Position numbers and translations under genes: made by a program | Shown: positions 53,172-63,260 of the stretch, in pieces | Position numbering within the stretch: position 1 is the first letter of the stretch | Layout: each line of letters opens with the position of its first letter | Source of the DNA: Spartobacteria bacterium | Lineage (GTDB): Bacteria > Verrucomicrobiota > Verrucomicrobiia > Chthoniobacterales > UBA10450 | Length of the DNA stretch: 64,000 nucleotides | NCBI GenBank assembly: GCA_003169975.1 | Contig: PNAA01000057.1 | Location: forward strand, 62,001 to 126,000 | Direction of reading: 5' to 3' | The notes under the pieces: model-generated | What the model was told of the DNA's origin: nothing | Database searches by the model: none | Seen by the model: the letters and a program-made list of their open reading frames with translations, nothing else

Positions 53172-53942
53172 TTAAGCCGCATTCCGGAAATCGGCGTCCA
53201 TTCCAGCGATGCCTTGGAACGCTCTCGTGACCAAATCAATTTCTTCCGCTGTTAGCCGCCGGTCGAATTTCTCGTTCTCGATGTAACCGCAGAGCTGTCC
53301 ATCACGCACGCAATGGACGTTCCGCGTAGTTCCGAACTTGGCGTCGACGCGCGCCTTTGGAAACACCATCACGCCTTGGATGAACACTTCGCGTCCAGTG
53401 AGCGCAACAACTTGTTCGCGCACGGCCATGATCCGGCGGACCAACTGTTTGACATACGGTTGTGAGGACGGTGTCCCATCCTGCATCAGCTCACCTTCTC
53501 CGTCGGCGGTGATCGTCCCTCGAAAGTTCTTCGTCTCGACCGCAAAAATGCCGCTGGGACCTACCACCAGGTGATCAAAGTTTCCTCTCGCCGTGTTGAA
53601 ATCATGGAAAACGACAAAATTCTTCGACAACCGGTCCAACGCGATAGCCACGACACGTTCACCCTCCGCTCCGCTTCTCCAAGTATGCCTCTCGCGTTCG
53701 TAAAGATCAATTCGTCGATTCTGCGCTTTGAAGAGTCGCCAAACGATTACCGTACCCAAAATTGCACCTGCCAGCGCCGAAAGTGGCTTCGAGCCGCCCC
53801 TCAAAAGGAGGTTGGAAACAATGGCCCCTTCGAATACGCTGATAGCAACAGCCACGAACATCGTCGTCATCAACATTCGTTGAAAGGCCCGCATCGATTG
53901 GTCTGCTGCATAGCGGCCCGCTGTTCCAATAACCTTCGGCAT
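53172..53942 (-). CDS. membrane-anchored NERD-domain protein
   Basis: A 256-residue protein: two hydrophobic segments (about 25-70, FVAVAISVFEGAIVSNLLL and ALAGAILGTVIVWRLF), then a nuclease-related NERD domain (about 88-200) with HDFNTARGNFDHLVVGPSGI and FAVETKNFRGTI, which supplies the D and E-x-K of a PD-(D/E)xK-like site. The family is linked to DNA processing, but activity is mostly untested. Flanked by the two copies of a 60-bp repeat. Confidence 0.82.
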   Translation of the reverse strand: MPKVIGTAGRYAADQSMRAFQRMLMTTMFVAVAISVFEGAIVSNLLLRGGSKPLSALAGAILGTVIVWRLFKAQNRRIDLYERERHTWRSGAEGERVVAIALDRLSKNFVVFHDFNTARGNFDHLVVGPSGIFAVETKNFRGTITADGEGELMQDGTPSSQPYVKQLVRRIMAVREQVVALTGREVFIQGVMVFPKARVDAKFGTTRNVHCVRDGQLCGYIENEKFDRRLTAEEIDLVTRAFQGIAGMDADFRNAA

Positions 53943-56470: not shown

Positions 56471-56546
56471 TGGAGCCGAAGACGGGACTCGAACCCGTGA
56501 CCTGCTGATTACGAATCAGCTGCTCTACCAGCTGAGCTACTTCGGC
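56471..56546 (-). tRNA. tRNA-Thr (anticodon CGT)
   Basis: A complete 76-base cloverleaf on the minus strand. The acceptor stem GCCGAAG pairs with CTTCGGC, followed by discriminator T and encoded CCA. D-arm is AGCTCAGCTGGTAGAGC. The anticodon stem GCTGA/TCAGC holds loop TTCGTAA with anticodon CGT. The T-arm contains GGTTCGAGTCC. It reads ACG codons. The DNA on its 3' side (lower coordinates) is the repeat-rich, motif-free accessory region, so it may be an integration site. Confidence 0.97.
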
Positions 56547-56727: not shown

Positions 56728-57213
56728 ATGATCATCCCCACCGAACCCATTGGCAGCATCCCACGGCCGCTTCCTTTGGTTGCGGCGTTGGCCAAAACGG
56801 ACTGCGACGATCCGGCGCTTGATCCCCTCTATGAAGAGGCGATCCGCGACACGATCGCGCGTTTCGAAGCGACTGGTTCGCCCGTGACCACCGACGGCGA
56901 ACAACGCAAATATCACAATTTCGGAACCTATTGCGTCGATCTCGCCGCTGCGCTCAAGCTGGCCGAACAAGAAATGCCCGTCGCCCCGATCGACCTCGTG
57001 ATGAGCGACCTCGGTCTGCCCGATGGCATCGGTCTCGACTTGATGCGCCAACTTTCCTCCAAATACGGACTGCCCGGCATCGCACTCAGCGGCTTCGGAA
57101 TGGACTCCGATTTGGCGCAAAGTAGCGCGGCCGGATTTTCCCGTCACCTGATCAAGCCGATCGACATCGCGGTTCTCCGCGCCACCCTCGCCGAGATGTC
57201 GAGCGGGGCATAA
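56728..57213 (+). CDS. chimeric frame: MetE-like N-terminus joined to a receiver domain
   Basis: The first 70 or so residues (IPTEPIGSIPRPLPLVAALA, then FEATGSPVTTDGEQRKYHNF) are the start of the cobalamin-independent methionine synthase-like (UROD/MetE) family. After about residue 72 the sequence becomes the second half of a receiver domain (IDLVMSDLGLPDGIGLDLMR, GIALSGFGMDSD, HLIKPID), lacking the first beta strand and its acidic pair. The fusion is in frame. It probably arose by deletion between two genes and is unlikely to keep either function, but a product of 161 residues can be made. Confidence 0.7.
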   Translation: MIIPTEPIGSIPRPLPLVAALAKTDCDDPALDPLYEEAIRDTIARFEATGSPVTTDGEQRKYHNFGTYCVDLAAALKLAEQEMPVAPIDLVMSDLGLPDGIGLDLMRQLSSKYGLPGIALSGFGMDSDLAQSSAAGFSRHLIKPIDIAVLRATLAEMSSGA

Positions 57214-57992: not shown

Positions 57993-58826
57993 ATGAGCGA
58001 CGCTGACGCAACCCTAGCCAAACAATCGGAGACGGCCCAGGTCAGATTTCGGAAACCTCCAATAATCGAGAGAGTTGCGACTGTTTCCGGCAATATTTCT
58101 CCGGAGCAGTTTCATTCCCGGATGGACAGCTGGAAGAGTATTGTCGCAGCCGATTTTCCGATTTACGACCCGCTCACTGAATGGCTGTTAAATGTCCAAG
58201 AGAAAGACGGAGTCCCCCTACTGGACGAGGCCGAACCGGAGGTTGTTGTTACGCATCGTTTTTCAAGGCGCAACCAAAATGGAGATCGGACGTGGAGCAT
58301 GCGCTGTCCGGCTGACCGGCTGACGTTGAACCTTCATTCAGAGCACAACGAGCCTCACAACTTCGAGGAACTATTTGCAGCGATGGCAAAATGGTTGCCG
58401 CGATGGAGCGATCACTTTGGCGCGACTGCCTACCCGACCGTCCAACTTGACTATGTCAATCTGCTCGGCCCGCAGACGACTCCCACGTTTGTTGACAGGA
58501 ACGGAGGGATCCAGATAAACCGCCTAATCGAGGTCTTCGGCAAGATTCCGGGGCCGCACATCTCAATTATAGCGCCGTATGATTGTCGAGTCGGACTCTT
58601 GATCGAGCCAAACCGGTGCATGGTGAACATTCATGTTCATGCCGTTCGTGATCGCGACGCTGCATTGCACGTGCGAGTTGACTTACAGGTCATCGCAACC
58701 CAACGTGATCCGTTGACGAGTGCAGACGCAGCGATGGGTGAAGTGCGGTATACACACGATGTGCTCATCGGTCAGTTCTTGGCGATCTTTACGGAGGAAG
58801 CCAAGACGTCTTTCGAACCACTATGA
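57993..58826 (+). CDS. TIGR04255-family protein, first gene of a three-gene cassette
   Basis: A 277-residue protein. The start FRKPPIIERVATVSGNIS, the central HRFSRRNQNGDRTWSMRCPA and QLDYVNLLGPQTTP fit the TIGR04255 family, a sporadically distributed group with no known function. There is no signal peptide or membrane segment. Base composition is visibly less GC-rich than the core genes around it, consistent with transfer. It overlaps the second gene by ATGA (58823-58826). Confidence 0.72.
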   Translation: MSDADATLAKQSETAQVRFRKPPIIERVATVSGNISPEQFHSRMDSWKSIVAADFPIYDPLTEWLLNVQEKDGVPLLDEAEPEVVVTHRFSRRNQNGDRTWSMRCPADRLTLNLHSEHNEPHNFEELFAAMAKWLPRWSDHFGATAYPTVQLDYVNLLGPQTTPTFVDRNGGIQINRLIEVFGKIPGPHISIIAPYDCRVGLLIEPNRCMVNIHVHAVRDRDAALHVRVDLQVIATQRDPLTSADAAMGEVRYTHDVLIGQFLAIFTEEAKTSFEPL

Positions 58827-59470
58827 TTGCCGCTGATTTACCGCGCACCATTCAGCGGCCGGACTATGTAGAGGGGTTCAATGTTGGTGTGCCTAAAGAG
58901 CTTCGCGCCCGTCAGGAACCACGAAGAGATCGGAAGACGTCTTTCCGCTTCGACCAACGCATTATCCCTTTGGATGGCGGAACCGTCTTACTACGACTTC
59001 GTCAGTCCCTTAATCTCGCCGTAGATCCACAGACGATGCGATTCGAAGTCGACGGATGGAACATTCAGTTGCCCTGCGGCGAAGTTGCGGATCTGCCTCG
59101 ACAGATTGCGCGGCGATTCATTGAGCTTTTCAGCAAGGCCGACGCCCGCATTTTAACTGAGGCAGAGGAGCAGGATTGGCTCCACGTCCTAGATGAAGTG
59201 GATTACACGCAATTTTGCGTAGATCGCGCAGCCCCTCATTACGTTGAGGGGACTCTTCTGCGTCACACTCCGGTGTGCAGGGTGGAGTGGCACGACGGCG
59301 AGTTCGAAAACCTGAACCCACAGGCAGCCACGGCACTTCGCTTTTTAGAGGCGGGACAAAGGTTTGGCGCATTTGTAAAACTCGGCAAAGCAAACGAGGT
59401 AAAATCGATCGAGCGTGTGACAATGGTATTCGATTCTCCCGAAGGCCTCGCAGATGGGGCTAACGGTTGA
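58823..59470 (+). CDS. protein of unknown function, second gene of the cassette
   Basis: A 215-residue soluble protein that I do not recognise. It starts MIAADLPRTIQRPDYVEGFN. It has a Trp-rich middle (FEVDGWNIQLPCGEVADLPR) and a helix with a D/E-rich stretch around residue 110. It overlaps its neighbours by 4 and 17 bases, so the three are almost surely translated together. Possibly an adaptor between the TIGR04255-like protein and the MBL-fold enzyme. Confidence 0.7.
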   Translation: MIAADLPRTIQRPDYVEGFNVGVPKELRARQEPRRDRKTSFRFDQRIIPLDGGTVLLRLRQSLNLAVDPQTMRFEVDGWNIQLPCGEVADLPRQIARRFIELFSKADARILTEAEEQDWLHVLDEVDYTQFCVDRAAPHYVEGTLLRHTPVCRVEWHDGEFENLNPQAATALRFLEAGQRFGAFVKLGKANEVKSIERVTMVFDSPEGLADGANG

Positions 59471-60446
59471 TTTTTGGAATGTCGCTCAAGGCGACTGCAC
59501 CGTAATCACTCTTCCCACCGGGGAGCTGATAATTATCGACATCGGGCCGAAAGGAAGTCCGCTGATTGACTACCTGAACGATCACCCCAAGACAATCCAA
59601 GCAGTCGTCTTGACTCATAACGACGCAGACCATGCTGGGGCATTGCCATCCCTCATCCAGGTTCATCGAAACCGGATACATAATTTCTTCATGCTTGCTG
59701 ATCGGCCTGTGGGGGACGTCCGGTTTCAAAAGCTCTTTCGAGCTGCGCTTCAAGGCGAGGTCGAGGGTCATTACACTATTACCAGGCTTCAAACCGGCGC
59801 TGAGATCTGGAGGGATGATTCTTTAAGATCTAGACTGGTGACGGTATATCCCGGATTCTCAGCAAACATTTTGGCGGGAAATCCGAACGAGACGTCGGGT
59901 ATCATCTGTTTGGAGATAGCCGATCACATCCGGATTATCTGGCCCGGAGACTCAACGACTGATCGCCTATCCCGAGAGTGTGGCGGAGCGAGGCCGTTTG
60001 TCTTGCATGGTCCTCACCATGGAGCCCCCGCAGACTTCCGTTCGCAGGAATCGTTCGAAGCGATCAAGCGAGTCGGGCCGAAACGGGCCTTCATTTCCGT
60101 TGGAACTACAAACGGGTATTCCCATCCTCGCGCAAAATACATTCGTCGTCTGGGCCGAACGCAGTGTCACGTAGTCTGCTCTCAACTAACGTCTCGATGT
60201 GATCGTCAGACGATCCAACATGAGGATCATGTGATGCAGTCAGAAGCATTGCTTGGGCTCCGATCGCCAAGGCGGGGTACAAGCTGCCGAGGAGCATGGA
60301 GATTGGAATTACATGTTGATGTTCTCGTTCCCGATAAGTGGGATCAGGAACATTTGAACCGTATCTCTAAACTCCGGCGACCTCAGTGTTTATATGGACG
60401 AGGATGGCGACGAGGTTCTAACTTGCCTCCCGCCGTGGTTGACTAA
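59454..60446 (+). CDS. MBL-fold metallohydrolase (ComEC/Rec2 C-domain-like), third gene of the cassette
   Basis: A 330-residue soluble protein. It begins LTVDFWNVAQGDCTVITLPT, the ComEC-like lead-in, and has the metal motif LTHNDADHAGAL (H55, D57, D59, H60), a further Asp in WPGDST and His in VLHGPHHGAPAD. The C-terminal 90 residues contain CHVVCSQLTSRC and SCRGAWRLELH, possibly another metal site. ComEC C-domains are nucleases, so hydrolysis of nucleic acid or a nucleotide second messenger is plausible but unproven. No membrane part is attached, so this is not a DNA-uptake channel. Confidence 0.82.
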   Translation: MGLTVDFWNVAQGDCTVITLPTGELIIIDIGPKGSPLIDYLNDHPKTIQAVVLTHNDADHAGALPSLIQVHRNRIHNFFMLADRPVGDVRFQKLFRAALQGEVEGHYTITRLQTGAEIWRDDSLRSRLVTVYPGFSANILAGNPNETSGIICLEIADHIRIIWPGDSTTDRLSRECGGARPFVLHGPHHGAPADFRSQESFEAIKRVGPKRAFISVGTTNGYSHPRAKYIRRLGRTQCHVVCSQLTSRCDRQTIQHEDHVMQSEALLGLRSPRRGTSCRGAWRLELHVDVLVPDKWDQEHLNRISKLRRPQCLYGRGWRRGSNLPPAVVD

Positions 60447-60684: not shown

Positions 60685-61782
60685 ATGCGATTCTTTGGCG
60701 TGATTGTGCATCAGAACGCTCACTTATTTTCGCCGCTGACCATACGCGACGTGCAATTCCGCAATCGCATCGTGGTCTCGCCGATGTGCCAGTATTCCAG
60801 CACAGACGGCTGCGCCAACGACTGGCATCTGGTCCATCTCGGCAGTCGCGCAGTCGGCGGCGCGGCGCTCGTTTTCACCGAGGCGGCGGCCGTGCTCGAA
60901 GACGGGCGGATCAGCCCGGACGATCTCGGGATTTGGAAAGATGCGCAGATCGAGATGTTGGCGCGGATATTCCATTTCATCGAAGGCCAGGGAGCGGTGC
61001 CGGGAATGCAACTCGCGCACGCCGGACGCAAAGCGAGCACGAGCGCGCCGTGGAAAGGCGGGAAGTCGTTAGGCGTGGCGGAGGGCGGCTGGAGCCCGAT
61101 CTTCGGACCGAGCCCGCTCGCCTTCGACGCAGGTTATCAGACACCGCGAGAACTGGATCAGTCCGGAATCGAACGCGTTCGCGAAGCGTTCGCGCACGGG
61201 GCGCAACGCGCGCTGCAGGCCGGCGCAAAGGTGATGGAGATTCACGCGGCGCACGGTTATTTGCTGCACAGTTTTCTTTCGCCACTGAGCAACCGGCGCA
61301 CCGATCAGTACGGCGGTTTATTTGAAAACCGGATCCGGCTTCTCTGCGAGACGGTGCTGGCCGTGCGCCATGCGTGGCCGGAAAAATATCCGCTCTTCGT
61401 GCGCATCTCGGCGACCGATTGGACCGAGGGCGGCTGGACCGGCGAAGATTCAGTCGCGCTGGCGAAGAAGTTGAAACCGCTCGCAGTCGACCTGATCGAC
61501 TGCTCGAGCGGTGGCAACGTTCCGAACGCCAAAATCCCCATTGGCGCCGGCTACCAGGTGCCGTTCGCGGCGCAGATCCGCCGGGAAGCGGAGATCGCCA
61601 CCGGCGCGGTTGGTATGATCACCGCGCCCGAGCAGGCGGACCACATCGTGCGCACGGGCCAGGCCGATCTCGTGCTGATGGCGCGCGAATTTTTGCGCCA
61701 TCCCTACTGGCCGCTCAACGCGGCATGTCCGCTCCACCAGAAAATGGACGCGCCATCGCAGTACGGCCGGGCGTTCCTGTAG
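60685..61782 (+). CDS. NADH:flavin oxidoreductase, old yellow enzyme family (YqjM-like)
   Basis: An FMN ene-reductase of about 365 residues with a TIM barrel. VVSPMCQYSSTDG carries the YqjM-type Cys, MQLAHAGRKAST binds FMN, and IHAAHGYLLHSFLSPLSNRR and TDQYGG hold the His/His and Tyr of the active site. The C-terminal QADLVLMAREFLRHPYWPL is typical. It starts after the motif-free region and again contains a CGTTAGGC octamer (61067). The first ATG (60685) or one a few codons later could be used. Confidence 0.92.
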   Translation: MRFFGVIVHQNAHLFSPLTIRDVQFRNRIVVSPMCQYSSTDGCANDWHLVHLGSRAVGGAALVFTEAAAVLEDGRISPDDLGIWKDAQIEMLARIFHFIEGQGAVPGMQLAHAGRKASTSAPWKGGKSLGVAEGGWSPIFGPSPLAFDAGYQTPRELDQSGIERVREAFAHGAQRALQAGAKVMEIHAAHGYLLHSFLSPLSNRRTDQYGGLFENRIRLLCETVLAVRHAWPEKYPLFVRISATDWTEGGWTGEDSVALAKKLKPLAVDLIDCSSGGNVPNAKIPIGAGYQVPFAAQIRREAEIATGAVGMITAPEQADHIVRTGQADLVLMAREFLRHPYWPLNAACPLHQKMDAPSQYGRAFL

Positions 61783-62667: not shown

Positions 62668-63135
62668 TCAGGAAGCGACGCCGCGGGCGATCTGTCCGAG
62701 CAAATTCTCGACTTCGCGGACGCCGGCCTCGCTTTGCGCCCGATCGAGCGGCACGACGCCGCCGAGGTCTTTCTGCGGCGTCTTGAGCCAGCGGCGCGCT
62801 TCGTCCAGGCTACCGACGAGATGCGCAGCGTGACCAAGCAGGCGCGCGAAACGCACGACTTTGTCGGATTCATCTTTCGTTAGGCGACCGGCCGTCTTGC
62901 GCCGGTCGATCGTCGCGCGGGAGAGACCGAGCCGGACCGTCAACTCATCCAGCGAAAGGTCCAGTTGCCGGCGCAAAGCTTCGAATTCGCCAAAATCGAG
63001 ACCAGGTGGAGCGACGGGCAGCTTCTTCACCGGCAACCCCTTAACCGGCGACCCTTTTGGCTTCTTCGCCGGCACGGGCCGCGCAGGAGCTTTCTTGCCG
63101 GGCTTGGCGGACTTTGCTTTCGTCGCAGTTTTCAT
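62668..63135 (-). CDS. Xre/MbcA/ParS-like (DUF2384) antitoxin-type protein with a Lys/Pro-rich tail
   Basis: From ATG 63133-63135 a 155-residue protein. The first 45 residues are Lys/Ala/Pro-rich (KTATKAKSAKPGKKAPARPV), then comes a helix-turn-helix (LSLDELTVRLGLSRATIDRR) and the DUF2384 toxin-binding part (LGHAAHLVGSLDEARRWLKT, GVREVENLLGQIARG). Such proteins normally sit directly upstream of a RES-domain toxin. Here the downstream neighbour is the converging winged helix gene, so the antitoxin appears to be an orphan. The basic tail may add DNA affinity. Confidence 0.8.
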   Translation of the reverse strand: MKTATKAKSAKPGKKAPARPVPAKKPKGSPVKGLPVKKLPVAPPGLDFGEFEALRRQLDLSLDELTVRLGLSRATIDRRKTAGRLTKDESDKVVRFARLLGHAAHLVGSLDEARRWLKTPQKDLGGVVPLDRAQSEAGVREVENLLGQIARGVAS

Positions 63136-63260
63136 CGCGAAGCCCGTCATAACAGATCGGCCAACAACCTGACAAGCCCGGTCGTGTCCCAGCAATAGGA
63201 GGGTTGCCGCCACGCAAATCGACTTGCGGGCAGGAGCACGCCCTCCGTACATTCAAAAAT

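Follow-up and report, generated by a model that had tools for sequence, protein, structure and literature searches.

A sporadic three-gene cassette with a ComEC-type MBL-fold protein and two new partners as a candidate defence system

The window, that is, the whole 64,000-nucleotide stretch of DNA analysed here, carries a cassette of three overlapping genes (p1, p2 and p3), for which the most fitting description is that of a candidate defence system with a known effector type and new partners. The unit is real, conserved and sporadic, and it is linked to restriction and mobile genes; judging from this genome context, we consider it probable that the cassette is an uncharacterised three-component anti-phage or anti-plasmid defence system acting through a DNA nuclease. 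A ComEC-like MBL nuclease is here found with two entirely different partners, one of which comes from the common, uncharacterised TIGR04255 group. If confirmed, the system would add a second mode of control for ComEC-like MBL nucleases and would give TIGR04255-type proteins their first testable function; a literature search found no publication on this group.

Layout and setting of the cassette

The three genes are encoded on the forward strand in the order p1 (57993–58826, an ORF of 277 aa coding for a distant TIGR04255-superfamily protein), p2 (58823–59470, 215 aa, without a known family) and p3 (59454–60446, 330 aa, coding for a ComEC-type MBL-fold protein, predicted to be a Mn-dependent DNA nuclease, without a transmembrane channel). 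The ORF coordinates agree with the overlaps of 4 bp (p1/p2) and 17 bp (p2/p3) described in an earlier note on this DNA, and the genes would be transcribed together as one operon; a promoter scan at the cassette gave no signal above chance. The low GC content mentioned in the same note was also evident, with 53.4% in the cassette versus 60.6% in the rest of the window: the cassette itself is the GC minimum of the window, just 0.3% of same-size windows being equally low, and GC3 was 0.52–0.59 in its genes versus 0.77 in the next gene.

The cassette was said to stand between a broken gene and an enzyme gene, and this is what we found. On the upstream side lie a small membrane ORF and a remnant ORF of hybrid make-up (56728–57213, forward strand), and an FMN oxidoreductase gene (60685–61782) forms the downstream flank. 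The first part of the remnant ORF, which lies next to a tRNA-Thr gene (56471–56546), resembles a fragment of another enzyme and its end is a response-regulator receiver domain; the region upstream of the cassette may accordingly bear scars of deletion or recombination. From gcvP to the oxidoreductase gene, the interval measures 10.2 kb in the window versus 2.8 and 1.7 kb in two congeners, which carry other genes there and lack the cassette; the position of the cassette therefore looks like a variable site carrying acquired cargo. Further downstream, a gene on the reverse strand (62668–63252) codes for a Xre/MbcA/ParS-type antitoxin (Pfam PF09722 and PF20432); no RES-type toxin was seen beside it, and it is possibly an orphan antitoxin.

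Recurrence and gene neighbourhood

The same p1-p2-p3 order was found in distantly related bacteria, namely in five further genomes of the phylum, and also on an IMG/VR contig, bringing the known loci to seven with the window included. With six further loci showing this gene order, chance falls far short of explaining the pattern. The cassette is intact in G360 (L007), G218 (L008), G356 (L009), G540 (L020) and G676 (IMG/VR contig 3300031903_000090, L054), in all of which the genes overlap or lie no more than 14 bp apart; G670 (L046) has the genes in the same order but with an interrupted p3, possibly through an error of assembly or sequencing. Identity to the window proteins was 28–36% for p1, 29–42% for p2 and 35–53% for p3, and the identity matrices of the three proteins co-varied (r 0.82–0.87; Mantel test, 2–9 of 720 permutations as good), an agreement that would be expected of genes inherited together. 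Among 289 genomes, a search with p1 and an independent search with the p3 tail found exactly the same four genomes. The cassette is rare, occurring in approximately 1–2% of sampled genomes (4/289, 3/246 and, among those with full gene sets, 3/193). All four remaining genomes of the genus lacked it, and p2 was absent from 97 of 98 genomes comprising the window's own and its genus-, family- and order-level relatives, the exception being the window's own genome. A protein search of phage and plasmid collections yielded no cassette: the plasmid matches to p3 were rejected, being MBL-DUF3006 pairs in both records examined, as were the phage matches, which mainly covered the motif region.

The earlier note had proposed a search for co-occurrence and for closeness to defence genes; the cassette recurs intact and sporadically, and in three of the five long-flanked loci it stands beside restriction-modification (R-M) or type IV restriction genes. 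The note's refuting condition, homologues without a recurrent neighbourhood, is contradicted by the loci found. In G676, hsdR, hsdM and hsdS are followed by a GmrSD_N gene (PADLOC HEC-05) that lies directly upstream of the cassette in the same direction and ends 15 bp before p1; RepB and serine recombinase genes lie downstream, and Mu-like portal, protease and terminase genes on the contig mark a Mu-like prophage beside the cassette. In G218, genes for an EcoRI-type methylase, a GmrSD-HNH protein (a type II REase according to PADLOC) and a NERD protein stand in series ahead of p1, and in G360 a C5 methylase, an AAA protein and a DUF2357-PD-(D/E)XK protein are encoded 4 kb away on the other strand. 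G356 has a phage-type integrase gene 4.3 kb from the cassette and replication genes within about 6 kb. No restriction genes were seen near the cassette in the window, in G540 or in G670, the contigs of the latter two being just 8–9 kb long. In the window, a gene for a NERD-domain membrane protein (53172–53942, reverse strand) lies 4 kb upstream of the cassette and is similar to the NERD gene next to the cassette in G218, its membership in the system being uncertain. The background comparison for this context consists of two gene counts: the GmrSD-HNH gene beside the cassette is the only GmrSD_N gene in the 4.2 Mb genome of G218, and there are two NERD genes per genome in each of the two genomes that have one near the cassette (the window's own and G218). 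As a side observation, the IMG/VR contig encodes, between the Mu-like prophage genes and hsdR (L062, 17311–18633, reverse strand), a 440-aa protein that is phospholipase-D-like by eye and has no Pfam or PADLOC match.

Such neighbours could also mean that the cassette is an accessory module of the adjoining restriction systems or of a mobile element, its nuclease clearing DNA already cut by a host restriction enzyme without sensing infection. What speaks for this reading is that the cassette continues a series of type I R-M and GmrSD genes in G676 and one of type II R-M, GmrSD and NERD genes in G218. We nevertheless regard it as unlikely, since the type of the restriction partner differs from locus to locus and the copy in the window is isolated, without R-M genes nearby.

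The MBL-fold protein and known nuclease systems

In the Pfam search, p3 matched Lactamase_B (E 8e-11). Its best NCBIfam match was ComEC/Rec2 (TIGR00361), with 47.8 bits versus a cut-off of 190 and with the match confined to the C-terminal nuclease part of the model, so that p3, scoring below the cut-off and having no competence channel domain, is not a member of ComEC/Rec2 proper. Compared with the solved ComEC nuclease domains (PDB 9ic4 and 30bt), the p3 profile gave E values of about 1e-16 over residues 1–246, a region that resembles the ComEC/Rec2 C-terminal MBL nuclease domain in fold, length and all metal-ligand positions; up to residue 246 the sequence alignment shows no more than short gaps, the extra part being C-terminal. 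Candidate ligands are D29, H55, D57, D59, H60, N145, D166 and H188/H189, and all of these from H55 onwards (H55, D57, D59, H60, N145, D166, H188 and H189) are invariant in the six complete p3 proteins, including the H55 and D59 that the earlier note had picked out for mutation. The ComEC-specific ligand set, consisting of the His and Asp residues of HxDxDH, the motif III Asn, a bridging Asp and the motif V His (PMC8579336, PMC12455585), maps to H55, D57, D59, H60, N145, D166 and H188/H189, which places p3 in the ComEC-type MBL nuclease superfamily. The description of p3 as a soluble relative of the ComEC nuclease domain, already given in the earlier note, is thus well supported by best matches and invariant ligands, and by analogy p3 would be the effector of the cassette, a soluble two-metal, probably Mn2+-dependent, DNA nuclease of the ComEC type.

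The MBL fold is shared by enzymes of diverse activity, and the glyoxalase II and RNase Z/J models also matched p3 weakly. It could accordingly be another MBL hydrolase, such as a nucleotidase, a signal-nucleotide phosphodiesterase or an RNase, within a system directed against a small molecule or RNA; we judge this improbable, given that the ComEC models match best and that the ComEC-specific pattern of HxDxDH plus Asn is invariant.

Unlike ComEC, p3 has no channel domain, is encoded together with p1 and p2, and carries an extra C-terminal tail of about 80–90 aa beyond residue 240. This tail (60141–60407, forward strand) contains four invariant cysteines (C242, C249, C278 and C312) and was found in no other context among the 289 genomes, occurring only with p1. 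A frameshift as the source of the odd last 90 residues was rejected: relatives carry the same tail in frame, and the tail is therefore genuine.

Several defence systems have been proven to use ComEC-like MBL nucleases as their effectors (PMC12799240). Soluble proteins of this kind in Hachiman, AVAST and canu have been shown or modelled to be protease-activated pro-nucleases, and a protease + MBL pair is also present in Lamassu and DRT (PMC12799240). With these systems (Hachiman, AVAST type 1, Lamassu, DRT and canu), the cassette shares a ComEC-like MBL effector encoded in a defence-island operon; it differs from them in having no protease, STAND ATPase, helicase or reverse transcriptase and in having the MBL gene in last place. 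No protease was matched in p1 or p2 (Pfam, NCBIfam, PADLOC), and the adjacent trypsin- or caspase-like protease of the Avs1a, LmuA, HamM, RTasMBL and canu systems, fused to the sensor or encoded alongside it, is missing from the cassette. A further trait by which these systems are recognised is a pair of gating insertions that block the active site. The LmuA, RTasMBL, Avs1a and 6A-MBL models matched p3 weakly, mainly in the metal-site region and far below their cut-offs; for 6A-MBL (NF058524, cut-off 220 bits), p3 reached 17–25 bits, mostly over the N-terminal 60–75 residues. Plasmid MBL + DUF3006 pairs contain a soluble ComEC-like MBL protein of similar length to p3, but consist of two genes and lack p1, p2 and a tail of the cassette type. 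Assignment of the cassette to any named MBL defence system thus fails on both partners and scores. Because the cassette contains no protease, control of its nuclease must differ from that in the protease-activated MBL systems, and might come from complex formation, from the Cys-rich tail or from a signal bound by p1.

The partner proteins and TIGR04255 operons

The window p1 had no match in Pfam, NCBIfam or PADLOC, the TIGR04255 model itself included. When compared by hhalign with a profile built from 19 TIGR04255 proteins of the same phylum, however, p1 matched over residues 18–271 with 97.2% probability (E 4e-11), whereas the control profiles of p2 and p3 reached at most 0.2% with the same set. 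The p1 of G218 matched the TIGR04255 model over its full length with 22.2 bits, below the NCBIfam cut-off of 30 bits. Neither of these two p1 proteins therefore exceeds the 30 bits that define the family, and the full-length profile similarity identifies p1, by sequence comparison, as a distant relative at the superfamily level only; the label "TIGR04255-like" used in the earlier note holds in this wider sense and not for the family itself. The AlphaFold2 model of p1 (mean pLDDT 79) predicts a duplicated beta-saddle of two b-a-b-b-b(-b)-a halves, with guanidino kinases as best structural neighbours (Z 9.0, rmsd 4.4, 186 aligned), followed by a Rep protein (Z 7.8) and TBP (Z 7); these weak matches to a common arrangement would indicate a fold type and not a function. 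In the proposed mechanism, p1 would act as a sensor or scaffold that holds the nuclease inactive as long as neither foreign DNA nor a signal of infection is present.

The middle protein, for which the earlier note could offer no identity, likewise matched no family in Pfam, NCBIfam or PADLOC. Its AlphaFold2 model (mean pLDDT 79) has 33 disordered residues at the start, an N-terminal beta domain (approximately 39–84), a helical segment (85–135) and an OB-like barrel (136–204) for which the best OB-fold match gave Z 6.4 (rmsd 2.7, 64 aligned), again a weak match to a common arrangement that would indicate fold type only and is no proof of function. A lone p2 relative without adjacent p1 or p3 was found once (L021, 26% identity to the window p2), and a p2 match in a Bacteroides MAG (L002) was rejected as a chance match of 44 residues inside unrelated proteins. 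ComEC nuclease domains are Mn-dependent DNases, and an OB fold within the same polypeptide assists them (PMC8579336, PMC12455585). With its OB-like barrel at the C-terminus, p2 would similarly bind nucleic acid and keep p3 in place or guide it, in this case in trans.

A p2 that models as an OB fold next to a p3 that is closest to the ComEC nuclease domain amounts to the soluble domain pair of ComEC, and the cassette could therefore be a soluble split ComEC with a housekeeping role in DNA uptake and processing, that is, in competence or DNA repair. We consider this very improbable and the least likely of the readings discussed here: a core function is hard to reconcile with a cassette that only about 1% of the phylum's genomes carry, that is low in GC and that has a variable site and a restriction context, and no competence genes were noticed beside any copy.

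The operons headed by genuine TIGR04255 genes offer a point of comparison. In 17 of 19 cases, the TIGR04255 gene heads an operon in which the next same-strand ORF overlaps it or begins no more than 12 bp away. In most of these operons, the second gene belongs to one family with a W-D-G motif, and kinship of p2 with this family was rejected (0.2% profile probability). The third genes vary: they code for a conserved ETSV-R-motif protein of about 150 aa, a PIN-domain protein (L028, E 3e-11), a HEPN-like protein just under the Pfam cut-off (L024) and others. Several of the operons lie beside R-M genes, coding for Eco57I-type (L025), HsdM (L029) and N6/N4 methylase (L030) proteins. The cassette is likewise an overlapping operon headed by a distant full-length relative, but differs in the unrelated p2 and in the MBL enzyme encoded by its third gene. 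As TIGR04255 operons keep the first gene and vary the third, the cassette would seem to have diverged within a modular type of operon, its third position being taken by an MBL enzyme. More tentatively, the TIGR04255 superfamily may be the sensor or scaffold module of a widespread immune platform that keeps its first gene and exchanges the later ones (an MBL DNase here; PIN, HEPN-like and other proteins elsewhere), the cassette being its MBL branch; we regard this as possible, though doubtful.

The PIN and HEPN-like genes in third place also bear on the earlier note's suggestion of a defence or toxin-antitoxin-like system, of which the defence part fits the genome context and the toxin-antitoxin part found no direct support for the cassette itself, this loose parallel elsewhere aside. 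According to that alternative, the cassette is a toxin-antitoxin-like or plasmid-maintenance unit in which p3 is a DNase toxin neutralised by p1 and/or p2, and the tight gene overlaps and the copy carried beside RepB and a recombinase are in keeping with it. It appears slightly less likely still than an accessory role in restriction: typical modules have two genes, in contrast to the three genes here, which code for 200–330 aa each and include an N-terminal saddle protein, and Pfam and NCBIfam searches revealed no antitoxin-type domain in p1 or p2.

The TIGR04255 loci of the phylum (L024–L041) are compact overlapping operons that form an operon type of their own. The C-terminal part of the PADLOC model PDC-M32A was weakly matched at three of them (L033, 4972–5436; L035, 4973–5428; L038, 3450–3926); these matches belong to the second genes of classical TIGR04255 operons, and PDC-M32A was rejected as a label for the cassette. 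One of the three, L033, is a genuine TIGR04255 operon that the window's own genome holds elsewhere (contig C42:99276–99959).
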